Shown: positions 7,960 through 24,488 of the stretch, in pieces
How positions within the stretch are numbered: the stretch's first letter is position 1
Layout of the letters: each line of letters opens with the position of its first letter
Made by a program: the position numbers and the translations under genes
NCBI GenBank assembly: GCA_022842625.1
Contig: JALHPG010000028.1
Location: 1 to 32,284, forward strand
From: Bacteroidia bacterium
GTDB lineage: Bacteria > Bacteroidota > Bacteroidia > B-17B0 > Aurantibacillaceae
DNA: 32,284 nucleotides
Direction: 5' to 3'
Notes under the pieces: model-generated
What the model was told of the DNA's origin: nothing
Databases searched by the model: none
What the model saw: only the letters and a program-made list of their open reading frames with translations

Positions 7960-8337
7960 ATGAAAAGCACAATGAAAACATTTTTTGCCGCAGTAGCATT
8001 TATGCTTATTTCTTCGGCTGCAACAGCGCAATACAAAATGGATAGCGACGGAAAAACACTTCGCAATTCAAGCAACTCATCTGTAGGAAAAATAGATAGT
8101 GATGGAAAAACTATCCGTAACTCAAGCAATAGTTCTGTTGGACACGTTGACAGCGATGGCAAAACCATTCGCAACTCCAGTAATTCATCGGTTTTAAAAG
8201 TTGACGGTAATGATATTCGCAACTCTAGCAATAGCACAATTGCAAAAATGAGTGATGTTACTAATGACATTAAAGGCGCAAAACCTGAAGCTGTCTATGT
8301 AGCCCTTTGGTGGTTCATAGTAAAAGGAAATAAATAA
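7960..8337 (+). CDS. Exported tandem-repeat protein, probable five-bladed beta-flower
   Basis: 125 residues. A signal peptide ends near ATAQ (24). Residues 25-94 hold four tandem 16-18-residue units of the form [YGL]-x-[IMV]-D-S-D-G-K-T-[IL]-R-N-S-S-N-S-[ST]-[VI]; a degenerate fifth follows at about 95-107 (AKMSDVTNDIKGA). Five such short beta hairpins match the architecture named five-fold beta-flower, in Bacteroidota secreted proteins of unknown role; I make this match from memory. The C-terminus is a hydrophobic strand (VYVALWWFIVKGNK). Met5 is an alternative start. It lies between two strong terminators, so it is its own transcription unit. Confidence 0.75.
   Translation: MKSTMKTFFAAVAFMLISSAATAQYKMDSDGKTLRNSSNSSVGKIDSDGKTIRNSSNSSVGHVDSDGKTIRNSSNSSVLKVDGNDIRNSSNSTIAKMSDVTNDIKGAKPEAVYVALWWFIVKGNK
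8032..8241 (+). repeat. Tandem 54-base coding repeat, four units
   Basis: Codons 25-94 of the beta-flower gene: three 54-base units (8032-8085, 8086-8139, 8140-8193) and a 48-base fourth. Units two and three are the most alike in protein; the DNA differs at many third positions, so the duplication is old and held by protein-level selection. Confidence 0.85.
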
Positions 8338-11217: not shown

Positions 11218-11907
11218 ATGAAAAAAATAGCAGTATTAGGAACAGGTTCAGTGGGTCAAACTTTTGCAACTAGATTAGCCGGATTAGGTTATGAGGTGAT
11301 GGTTGGAACACGAAATGTATCAGAAAAATTATCGACACCAGGTAAAGATGGAGCAAAAAATGCATTTGCAACATGGCATGAGTCTAACCTAAATATTAAA
11401 CTTGGCACCTTTGCCGAAACCGCAGCATTTGCAGACATTGTTTTAAATACAACAAAAGGATTGAACTCTTTGGACGCATTAAAATTAGCAACGGAGAAAA
11501 ATTTAGAGAACAAACTATTAGTTGACATTGCAAATCCTTTAGACTTTAGTAAAGGTATGCCACCATGTTTAGTTCCTGAATTAAGCAATACAAATTCGTT
11601 AGCAGAAGAAATTCAAAAAACATTTCCAAAAACTAAAGTTGTAAAAACATTAAACACTATGTGGTGCGGTCTTATGGTTGATCCATCATTAATAAAAGGC
11701 GATCATGTAAATTACATTTGTGGAAATGATGAAACTGCAAAATCAACAGTAAAACTATTACTAAATGAATTTGGCTGGAAGAACGATAATTTAATTGACC
11801 TTGGCGACCTAAGTGCTGCAAGAGGAACAGAAGCAGTGTTACCGGTTTGGTTAAGAATTTATGGCGCTAAAAAAAGCGCTGCCTTTAACTTTAACATAGT
11901 GAGTTAA
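11218..11907 (+). CDS. NADP-binding oxidoreductase, F420-dependent NADP reductase-like
   Basis: 229 residues. A Rossmann fold opens at the N-terminus (IAVLGTGSVGQTFATRLAGLG) and is followed by VMVGTRN, where the Arg after strand 2 suits the 2'-phosphate of NADP. Later elements include ADIVLNTTKG, LVDIANPLDFS and KVVKTLNTMWCGLMVDP, the pattern of the COG2085 group to which archaeal F420:NADP reductases belong. Bacteroidota generally lack F420, so this member probably uses another partner; that is inference. It is the second gene after the dioxygenase and may act on a product of it. A 78-bp palindromic repeat starts 7 bases after the stop. Confidence 0.85.
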   Translation: MKKIAVLGTGSVGQTFATRLAGLGYEVMVGTRNVSEKLSTPGKDGAKNAFATWHESNLNIKLGTFAETAAFADIVLNTTKGLNSLDALKLATEKNLENKLLVDIANPLDFSKGMPPCLVPELSNTNSLAEEIQKTFPKTKVVKTLNTMWCGLMVDPSLIKGDHVNYICGNDETAKSTVKLLLNEFGWKNDNLIDLGDLSAARGTEAVLPVWLRIYGAKKSAAFNFNIVS

Positions 11908-11914
11908 TTTCTTA

Positions 11915-11992
11915 CGTCATTACGAGGAGGTAACGACGAATCAATCTCAGACCACTGTGTGTTAGATTGCTTCGCTATCGCTCGCAATGACG
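11915..11992. repeat. 78-bp palindromic intergenic repeat (different family from copy 1)
   Basis: The left end CGTCATTACGAGGAGGTAAC and the right end GCTATCGCTCGCAATGACG fold back on each other (CGTCATTnCGAG pairs with CTCGnAATGACG), with a second pairing CAATCT/AGATTG inside. The motif CGTCATTGCGAGCGATAGCG is a well-known dispersed intergenic sequence in many bacteria. Confidence 0.75.
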
Positions 11993-12026
11993 AAAACTCA
12001 AACATTAAATTCTTAATATAAAACAA

Positions 12027-12055
12027 AAAAAGTCCCGGCACCTCAGGGACTTTTT
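12027..12055 (+). terminator. Terminator with GTCCC/GGGAC stem (left)
   Basis: Stem AAAAAGTCCC (12027-12036) with GGGACTTTTT (12046-12055) and a 9-base loop. The A/T-run symmetry makes it bidirectional. It probably ends the dioxygenase/oxidoreductase transcript. Confidence 0.75.
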
Positions 12056-12083
12056 ATTTCATCAAAAATGAAAATAATGAAAT

Positions 12084-12278
12084 TATTTCGTCCCTACAGG
12101 ACTTTAATATTTCTTCAATATTTTTCTAAAACATTTGACTCCTACGGAGTCTCTTTAAAATAAATCATTCAAGAAATTAAAATTTCTTATATTAAACTAT
12201 TTTGTAGTCCCGCTAGGGACTTAATATTATAGAAACATTTTCTTCCAAAAAAAACATTAGTCCCATAGGGACGAAATA
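12084..12278. repeat. 195-bp cluster of four short palindromes bounded by an 11-bp inverted repeat
   Basis: Four hairpins: GTCCCTACAGGAC (12090-12102), GACTCCTACGGAGTC (12137-12151), GTCCCGCTAGGGAC (12207-12220) and GTCCCATAGGGAC (12260-12272), with AT-rich spacers. The outer ends, TATTTCGTCCC (12084-12094) and GGGACGAAATA (12268-12278), are perfect inverted repeats. This looks like a REP/BIME-type or non-autonomous mobile unit; no transposase is present in the window. Confidence 0.65.
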
Positions 12279-12503
12279 TCAACTAATGATTACTAAGTTC
12301 GATAAACCGCGGTTTGGCATCCAGAAAAAGCGAAAAAAGTGTATATTTATATATGGAATCAATAAATTTAAATAGTTTAAAGCCAATAGAAGACAAAGGA
12401 TTTGAACTAATAATTGATTTTCAGTTAATCTTATCTATTGTCTCGTGATTTACTTTGATACTAGATTTCCAATTTGTGTTTATTAGTATAAAATAATTAA
12501 TAA
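12279..12503. other. Intergenic sequence between the palindrome cluster and the right terminator
   Basis: No supported gene. A 31-codon frame opens at ATG 12353 but has no family match, neighbour or terminator of its own, so I do not call it. Confidence 0.4.
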
Positions 12504-12535
12504 AAAAAGTCCCAGTTAAAATACCGGGACTTTTT
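12504..12535 (-). terminator. Terminator with GTCCC/GGGAC stem (right)
   Basis: Stem AAAAAGTCCC (12504-12513) with GGGACTTTTT (12526-12535) around a 12-base loop. It sits 2 bases after the stop of the 12538-12984 gene and is bidirectional. The ten stem bases are identical to those of the terminator at 12027-12055. Confidence 0.8.
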
Positions 12536-12537
12536 AT

Positions 12538-12984
12538 TTAAAAGTGATAGCAAGCTGTGTTATCTCTCCTTAACCTTCTTATTTTCGTTCGTTTAGTTCT
12601 CTTTTTCTTTTTGAGATCAAAAATTTTTAAAAAATTATTTCTTATTCTAATTTTTTTTGAAGTATGGGTCGTCTTTGTAATACCGTCACTATTTCCTGCA
12701 AATGAATTCGTATAATTAGATCTATTTTTATCCGAATTAACTGCAATTCCTTTTCCAAATAATTTATTAAACTCGTCATCTGCTAGTTTTTGATACTTAT
12801 GACAAGGGCAATTTGGGTTACGCGGATCGTTGATCGGATATTTTGCAGATAAAGAATCTTCCTTTAAACTTAAAGCATTTGCAAAACCAAGTTGAAAAAC
12901 AAATAAAATAAAGAACAACGCTTTTTTGTTTTGAAACTGAATGATGTTTTTTAAAGTGATCATGATTTCTAATTTTTTAAACAT
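12538..12984 (-). CDS. Small exported protein with Cys-Pro-Cys motif, unknown function
   Basis: 148 residues from the first ATG; Met8 (12963) is an equally likely start, giving 141. A hydrophobic segment (ALFFILFVFQLGFANA) with a long basic N-region acts as signal peptide. The mature part opens with DPRNPNCPCHKYQKLADDEFNKLFG: the Cys-Pro-Cys-His cluster is the only notable motif and could bind metal or haem-like cofactors, but no family is recognised. The C-terminus is very basic (long Lys/Arg runs near 124-140) and ends CYHF. It lies downstream of the alpha-2-macroglobulin gene on the same strand, but a 58-bp palindrome separates them, so an operon is uncertain. Confidence 0.6.
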   Translation of the reverse strand: MFKKLEIMITLKNIIQFQNKKALFFILFVFQLGFANALSLKEDSLSAKYPINDPRNPNCPCHKYQKLADDEFNKLFGKGIAVNSDKNRSNYTNSFAGNSDGITKTTHTSKKIRIRNNFLKIFDLKKKKRTKRTKIRRLRRDNTACYHF

Positions 12985-13011: not shown

Positions 13012-13069
13012 TGTCATTCCGAAGCATGAGGAATCTTTTAAAAAAGATCCTTCGTGCCTCAGGATGACA
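13012..13069. repeat. 58-bp palindromic intergenic repeat (copy 2 of the TGTCAT family)
   Basis: TGTCATTCCGAAGCATGAGG on the left and TGCCTCAGGATGACA on the right pair over most of their length, with a central AT-rich loop. It starts 5 bases after the macroglobulin stop on the minus strand and shares the TGTCAT ends and GATCCTTC core with 1951-2010. Confidence 0.8.
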
Positions 13070-23306: not shown

Positions 23307-24488
23307 TTATTTTCTTTTATTAGTCTTTTTTACTTTTGACTTAGCAATAACTTTTTTTACTGCTTTTTTAGCAACTTTTTTTATAGTTTTTTTAATCGGC
23401 TTTTTTGCAACTACTTTTTTAGCAGTTACTTTTTTTACCGCCTTTTTTGCTTTAACCACAATTTTTTTCTTTGCAACTTTTTTAACTAACTTCTTAGCTT
23501 TTACAGGAGCTTTTTTTATGGTTTTTTTTACGGCCTTTTTAACCGGCTTTTTCGCAACTGGTTTCTTTGCAGCAGGTTTCTTCGCAACAGCTTTTTTAAC
23601 AGGCTTTGCTTTTTTAACCACTTTTTTCTTTGCAGCCACCGGCGCTTTTTTAACCACCTTTTTAGCAACAGGTTTTACTACTGCTTTTTTTGCAGCTACA
23701 GCTTTAACCGGAACACTTTGTTTTTTAGCCTTTGCAATTTGTTTTAAATTTTCTTTTTCCTCTTCCGCTTCTTCTGCTTCTATTCTTTTTATCGCATCAA
23801 TTTCTAATAATAATTCCGGAGCTATTTCATTAGCTACTTCAAAATCTTGAATGGTTAGATCTAAATGCTCAAGATCGCTTTCTAATGCAGTTAGGTCCAT
23901 TTCTGCATTTAAAAATGTTATGCGGTCAACTAATGATTTAAAGATCTCATCAATTGTACCTACTCCTTTTATTGAATGAAATTTACCTTGCTCACTATAA
24001 TACGTTTTTAGCGGTAAAGTTTTTGTATTGTATTCTAAAATACGGCGACGAATAATATCTTCGTTTCTATCATCAGCGCGACCGCTTAATTGTCCGCGAT
24101 TTAATAAGCGTTTTAGTAATTCGTCATCTTCAACCTCTAAAGCTAACATACCACTAATACCTGTGCCTTTTTTTTGTAAAAGGTCGTCTAATGCAATGGC
24201 TTGAGCTGTAGTTCTTGGAAAACCATCAAAAATAAAACCTTTTGCGTTTACGTTATCGTCAAGTTTAGCTTCGATCATACCAATAACGATATCATCACTT
24301 ACTAACTCACCTTTATCCATTATTTCTTTAGCTTTTTTTCCTAAAGAAGTTCCTCTTTCGATTTCGCTGCGCAAAATATCGCCCGTGCTTAAATGTACTA
24401 ATCCGTACTTACTAATTAAGTTTTCTGATTGCGTACCTTTTCCTGCTCCGGGAGGTCCAAATAATACAAGGTTTAACATTTTTTTCAT
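23307..24488 (-). CDS. adk: Adenylate kinase with lysine-rich histone H1-like C-terminal extension
   Basis: 393 residues, about twice the family length. Residues 1-192 are a complete short-lid adenylate kinase: P-loop GPPGAGKGT (11-19), HLSTGD (32-37), GFIFDGFPRT (84-93) and lid RGQLSGRADDRNEDIIRRR (131-149) without zinc cysteines. It interconverts ATP, AMP and ADP in the cytoplasm. Residues 193-250 are an acidic helical linker (EAEEAEEEKEN). Residues 251-393 hold 62 lysines in 143 positions, mostly KK or AKK/VKK/KKP units with Ala, Val and Pro, like histone H1-type or AlgP tails. No stop separates the parts, so it is one frame. The tail may bind nucleic acid or polyphosphate; this is inference. 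Met4 is an alternative start. It lies 34 bases after hpt. Confidence 0.95.
   Translation of the reverse strand: MKKMLNLVLFGPPGAGKGTQSENLISKYGLVHLSTGDILRSEIERGTSLGKKAKEIMDKGELVSDDIVIGMIEAKLDDNVNAKGFIFDGFPRTTAQAIALDDLLQKKGTGISGMLALEVEDDELLKRLLNRGQLSGRADDRNEDIIRRRILEYNTKTLPLKTYYSEQGKFHSIKGVGTIDEIFKSLVDRITFLNAEMDLTALESDLEHLDLTIQDFEVANEIAPELLLEIDAIKRIEAEEAEEEKENLKQIAKAKKQSVPVKAVAAKKAVVKPVAKKVVKKAPVAAKKKVVKKAKPVKKAVAKKPAAKKPVAKKPVKKAVKKTIKKAPVKAKKLVKKVAKKKIVVKAKKAVKKVTAKKVVAKKPIKKTIKKVAKKAVKKVIAKSKVKKTNKRK

Follow-up and report, generated by a model that had tools for sequence, protein, structure and literature searches.

A dispersed four-hairpin repeat in a Bacteroidia genome, a candidate REP-like mobile unit putatively served by a subclass 1.2 Y1 transposase

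Between a gene resembling NADP/F420-dependent oxidoreductases (11218-11907, plus strand) and a convergent ORF (12538-12984, minus strand) without a match to Pfam or NCBIfam, the 32,284-nucleotide stretch of Bacteroidia DNA analysed here (the window, contig C28 of draft genome G000) carries a block of 195 bases containing four small hairpins in mirror order (12084-12278), set between two terminators. The left gene marks the orthologous site in other genomes, and the right ORF is kept there in relatives. The question that this locus raises is what the block is, how it came to lie between these genes and which enzyme, if any, could have put it there. An initial annotation had suggested that the repeats originated as terminator-like elements or multiplied in that form, and that they might be a REP/BIME-like non-autonomous mobile unit; these two proposals have fared very differently.

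The block is a composite of the form A B B' A'. Its first outer hairpin, A (GTCCCTACAGGAC, 12090-12102, 5' foot TATTTC), is imperfect, with a perfect stem of 4 bp and a mismatch above it; the inner hairpins are B (GACTCCTACGGAGTC, 12137-12151, stem GACTCC/GGAGTC) and C (GTCCCGCTAGGGAC, 12207-12220, tail TTAATATTATAGAAA), and the last, D (GTCCCATAGGGAC, 12260-12272, tail GAAATAT), is an inverted copy of A. The initial annotation counted the palindromes correctly and read B correctly, but gave the remaining three a GTCCC/GGGAC core, which only C and D possess as a perfect stem. The inverted repeat TATTTCGTCCCTA/TAGGGACGAAATA bounds the block; the arms TATTTCGTCCC/GGGACGAAATA are perfect, as had been claimed for 11 bp, and in fact reach 13 bp (12084-12096 with 12266-12278). 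Folded as DNA, the unit has a z-score of -5.7, with A pairing to D, and positions 12056-12503 hold two strict GC hairpins (stem of at least 5, loop of 3-4, at least 4 GC within the inner 5) against none in 300 dinucleotide shuffles. At a permissive threshold Rfam returned 15 matches, all below their gathering scores; the best of them (E 0.0024), to a Brucella sRNA, overlaps the second terminator, and a reading as a known RNA was rejected.

The surrounding sequence holds other types of repeat. One, at 11912-11995, is an interspersed inverted repeat distinct from the block (TTACGTCATTACGAGG...CTCGCAATGACG); numerous matches to 11915-11992 occur in G000, G018, G020, G027, G038 and G039. Another, GCATTCAGAAAAAGCGGAAAAAA.GTATATTTATATATG... 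(12298-12375), directly follows the cluster in G000, occurs twice in G020 and stands alone at several G018 sites (L167, L168, L175-L177); several copies end in GGTTCGAATCC, which resembles a tRNA T-arm, and ARAGORN found no tRNA in this repeat at six loci. A third type, inverted, lies at 13013-13068 (CTGTCATTCCGAAGCATGAGGAATC...GGATGACA). Elsewhere in the window, an ORF at 23307-24488 (minus strand) begins, as read from its sequence, like an adenylate kinase and continues into a long Lys/Ala/Val-rich tail resembling histone H1, and a small ORF at 7960-8337 (plus strand) contains tandemly repeated (V/I)DSDGKTIRNSSNSSVG-type motifs.

Copies of the block are dispersed through the genome. The pattern GTCCCN{2,6}GGGAC occurs 21 times in the whole 4.09-Mb draft, against three occurrences of the reversed control pattern, and the palindromes cluster on eight contigs (C1, C15, C20, C28, C43, C52, C63 and C69), all of which except C15 gave strong matches in a DNA search using the cluster. 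Complete four-hairpin units number eight on six contigs, one each on C1, C20, C28, C43 and C69 and three in tandem on C63; the C52 set is rearranged or decayed and the C15 set divergent. They lie between genes, although one mechanically called ORF of 86 aa overlaps the C1 unit. The common layout is an outer A with ATTTC at its 5' foot, TTTCTAnnATATT preceding the inner B, and C and D as mirror images. Nineteen units with this layout were aligned (eight from G000, two from G018, eight from G020 and one from G006), leaving aside rows that were incomplete or differently laid out, namely C52, C15, L241 (tandem-amplified, G018), L174 (degraded, G006 C10), L249, L252, the G007 copies (L244-L246) and the G008 copies. 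Of these, L241:244-690 (G018 C8), at a sucD/VanZ-like site, contains an internally amplified unit with 3.9 copies of a 114-bp repeat at 91% matches.

Conservation at the 36 outer hairpins runs through GAAATA and then ceases, which marks the ends of the unit. The tail of the inner hairpins is AATATnnTAGAAA; its consensus is partly circular, since sites were oriented using that motif, but expectation maximisation on 343 sites from 80 named transposase loci, in which the motif was not used, recovered the same tail. The flank profiles thus contain GAAATA or AATATnnTAGAAA tails, and GT[AG]G is absent from the hairpin foot. At the first position of the xTCCC..GGGAx stems the pair is G-C in 68 cases, A-T in 17 and unpaired in three; the stems vary by compensation, and by this signature their structure appears to be under constraint.

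Comparison with same-genus relatives was informative at four sites (C28, C20, C63 and C69). At the window site, both flanking genes are present in G007 and G018, with one terminator and no cluster between them; G006 has additional genes and no cluster, and G020 has a cluster, with a second one after the F420-like gene. The C20 unit is present in G000, G020 and G018, while the site is empty in G006 (a 15-bp gap between matches) and G007 (28 bp); the C69 unit is present in G000 and absent from G020 and G007. On C63, the transposase gene described below and its adjoining units are present in G000 and G018 and absent from G006, G007 and G020; in G007 and G020 the place is occupied by an intact, different inverted repeat, which the insertion interrupts. 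That repeat, of the GGAACACAGATGACGCGGAT...ATCCGTGTTCTATCAC type, represents another MITE-like family (L271, G007 C26; L273, G020 C74). For the C1 and C43 units the flanking genes were found in relatives, yet were not adjacent. Since relatives of the same genus that lack the unit keep its flanking genes at the four informative sites, the unit is an insertion. The block is neither unique in the genome nor conserved with its flanks in all relatives, and these eight units and empty sites support the mobile-unit proposal of the initial annotation.

The proposal of a terminator origin has to be set against the history of the two flanking terminators (12027-12055 and 12504-12535; folds of -13.3 and -14.6 kcal/mol), whose 10-base stems, AAAAAGTCCC/GGGACTTTTT, are identical, as originally described. 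What favours such an origin is that both carry the same GTCCC/GGGAC core as the unit. However, G007 and G018 possess a single terminator with this core at the window site and no cluster, and elsewhere in the genome the unit hairpins adjoin terminators with other cores, as on C20 and C43. Alignment of both G000, both G020 and the single G007, G018 and G006 terminators (the last being the one on the ORF side) reveals one homologous block, AAAAAAAGTCCC..GGGACTTTTTATTTGATCAAAAATG. Terminator 1, an intrinsic terminator followed by ATTTCATCAAAAATG, is homologous to the relatives' single terminator; terminator 2, next to the convergent ORF, is a second copy of the ancestral one; and the two account for two of only three AAAGTCCC..GGGACTTT stems genome-wide. 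In both G000 and G020 (window; L167), the ancestral bidirectional terminator and ATTTGATCAAAAATG are duplicated on either side of the insertion, a duplication of 45-55 bp around the window unit; none of this type was seen at the C20 or C63 sites. By this alignment the ancestral terminator possessed the core beforehand, and the lineage of G000 and G020 came to carry a copy of it on each side of the insertion. The shared core therefore provides no evidence that the repeats derive from terminators; it looks coincidental, because both flanking terminators are copies of one that existed already, and we consider a terminator-like origin or mode of spread highly improbable for the repeats.

The genome contains exactly one gene of the Y1_Tnp family (PF01797, E 2.2e-29), tnpA on C63 (16668-17126, minus strand), encoding a Y1 (HUH) transposase of 153 aa. 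Some 12 bp separate its start codon from the first of the hairpins in the three tandem units; a linked Y1 transposase, which the initial annotation had advised looking for, is thus found directly beside the repeats. The protein matches solved transposases, with a phmmer E-value of 2.7e-8 to chain 2xm3_A, which we take to be the ISDra2 enzyme. It passes the NCBIfam IS200 model (NF033573, 77.6 bits, cut-off 55) and falls below the RAYT model (NF047646, 30.8 bits, cut-off 80), and its tyrosine motif is YIENQ, not the Y..NP of RAYT-class proteins. With DHIH, WQ (as FEWQ) and YIENQEEHH in 153 aa, it matches the signature motifs and length of TnpA_Y1 subclass 1.2 (DH[IV]H, WQ, Y---Q--HH, about 148 aa), of which it is a predicted member. 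In Quentin et al. 2018 (PMC6006769), this subclass is a group of Bacteroidetes and Cyanobacteria, tabulated without associated structures and said not to share the properties of insertion sequences. The closest tnpA, L243 (G018 C1, 76% identity), occupies the orthologous site and is probably dead, because it has an in-frame stop just past the region of the catalytic tyrosine.

The association of hairpins with this transposase extends beyond one genome. We assembled 109 tnpA relatives (80 named, mostly from Bacteroidota, and 29 loci from relatives), of which 99 have Y...Q..HH and 105 have 120 bp of sequence on both sides. A GC hairpin lies within 120 bp at 72 of those 105 loci, compared with 21 of 396 control ORFs, drawn from the same loci and 100 aa or longer (Fisher 7e-42); the remaining 33 loci lack a hairpin under the definition used. 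Maxima in hairpin position fall at -19 to -37 before the ATG and at +1 to +28 after the stop. Around the 80 named loci the density of GC hairpins is 1.67 per kb over the first kilobase upstream, 1.33 over the first kilobase downstream and 0.25 at distances greater than 2 kb. Loci with hairpins on both sides show the order C D - tnpA - A B. Core types at these loci include GTCCC, GCTCC, ACCCC, GCCCC and others, and they follow the tnpA tree, requiring 16 changes, whereas shuffled labels needed 23.6 on average and never fewer than 21 (0 of 500 shuffles; 76 of 109 rows labelled), on a quick tree, poorly supported in places, of the G000 protein and 108 of the 109 relatives (L204 omitted). Among the 80 named loci by themselves, 53 of them labelled and nearly all GTCCC, there is no tree signal (four changes, shuffled mean 4.0). 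Co-occurrence of tnpA with the palindromes across the genus is suggestive only, with a raw p of 0.001, a control-subtracted p of 0.07 and a p of 0.05 for the control pattern alone. G020 has 22 GTCCC palindromes but lacks a close tnpA, the identities being only 54% and 46%; units can therefore persist without it, or another enzyme moves them.

Two other accounts would leave the unit without a resident transposase of this kind. If the hairpins were bidirectional terminators, or stabilisers of mRNA 3' ends, selected at convergent gene ends, their link to tnpA would be incidental; five of the six sites away from tnpA do lie between convergent ORFs (C15, with one neighbour only, is uncounted), and on the minus strand hairpins B and D were scored as weakly terminator-like. 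Yet several units adjoin terminators that the genes already possess, close relatives with the same genes have empty sites, and selection for termination or stability leaves the mirror symmetry of A and D, the outer boundary and the linkage to tnpA unexplained, so that we regard this account as improbable. A more serious competitor, although we still think it unlikely, sees in the units the decayed ends, of MITE type, of an ordinary IS200-like insertion sequence and not a REP-type population with a resident transposase. The scores of TnpA against the IS200 and RAYT models lean that way, as does the observation that tnpA and its unit or units form a single insert in G018 and G000, where G006, G007 and G020 have an empty site. 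Against it, there is one tnpA for eight units, the same four-hairpin layout recurs at many sites without tnpA, and the order C D - tnpA - A B places the gene between units and not inside one.

We consider it likely, instead, that the cluster is a non-autonomous REPIN/BIME-like mobile unit served by the subclass 1.2 TnpA_Y1 (HUH/tyrosine) transposase. The connection between unit and enzyme rests on position, cognate core and presence or absence. Under the model that we propose, a unit comprises two hairpins and their mirror copies, and its DNA, when single-stranded, would form recognition hairpins bound by TnpA, which would excise or copy the unit and insert it between genes. By analogy with IS608 and TnpA_REP, for which PMC6006769 gives general background, the cut would fall near the tail on single-stranded DNA, and the mirror symmetry would mean that either strand could serve. 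The GAAATA and AATATnnTAGAAA tails may be guide or cleavage signals of TnpA. The source would be the sole Y1 transposase gene, the one whose 5' end adjoins three tandem units; this TnpA would perform the cutting and joining, the single gene presumably acting in trans, and the unit may still be mobile.

The resemblance to REPINs and BIMEs mobilised by RAYT (TnpA_REP) in Pseudomonas fluorescens and E. coli lies in short GC palindromes in inverted pairs, dispersed between genes, and in tandem units beside a single-copy Y1 transposase gene. Those systems, however, have a GT[AG]G foot where the G000 units have their own tails, and two hairpins per unit where G000 has four; the G000 transposase is class 1-like (YxxxQ) and below the RAYT cut-off, and the copy number, about eight units, is low by the standards of REP families. 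By analogy, the G000 unit would work like a REPIN or BIME, but it departs from RAYT-REP systems in two respects, the foot tetranucleotide and the transposase class. The IS200/IS605 elements of subclass 1.1 (IS608, ISDra2) have a homologous HUH/Y transposase and hairpins near the gene ends, but G000 has no multi-copy whole element, and its repeats are mirror-symmetric and mostly without tnpA. Subclass 1.2 itself, as described in PMC6006769, agrees in motifs (DH[IV]H, WQ, Y---Q--HH), length (about 150 aa), occurrence in Bacteroidota and low copy number, and differs in being listed without secondary structures, whereas here hairpins flank most sampled members and the repeats of one member are dispersed. 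The automatic repeat search described there required GT[AG]G at the foot, which the G000 repeats lack. Our own literature search, over titles and the beginnings of abstracts and with few subscription papers covered, found no description of such repeats with subclass 1.2, and within similarly limited coverage of subscription papers the string GTCCCTACGGGAC had no match.

We incline, with rather more belief than doubt, to the broader proposition that subclass 1.2 Y1 transposases drive their own REP-like family in Bacteroidota, with a four-hairpin A B B' A' unit, a non-GTAG tail and clade-specific stem cores, and that this constitutes a third REP-type lineage beside GTAG-REP/RAYT and IS200. Such repeats would escape automatic REP searches in which GT[AG]G is demanded at the hairpin foot. 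The unit is a candidate substrate for the subclass 1.2 transposases, which have been described as having none, and their function therefore becomes testable; it also suggests that IS200-like enzymes gave rise to REP-type repeats on more than one occasion, with recognition tails that differ.
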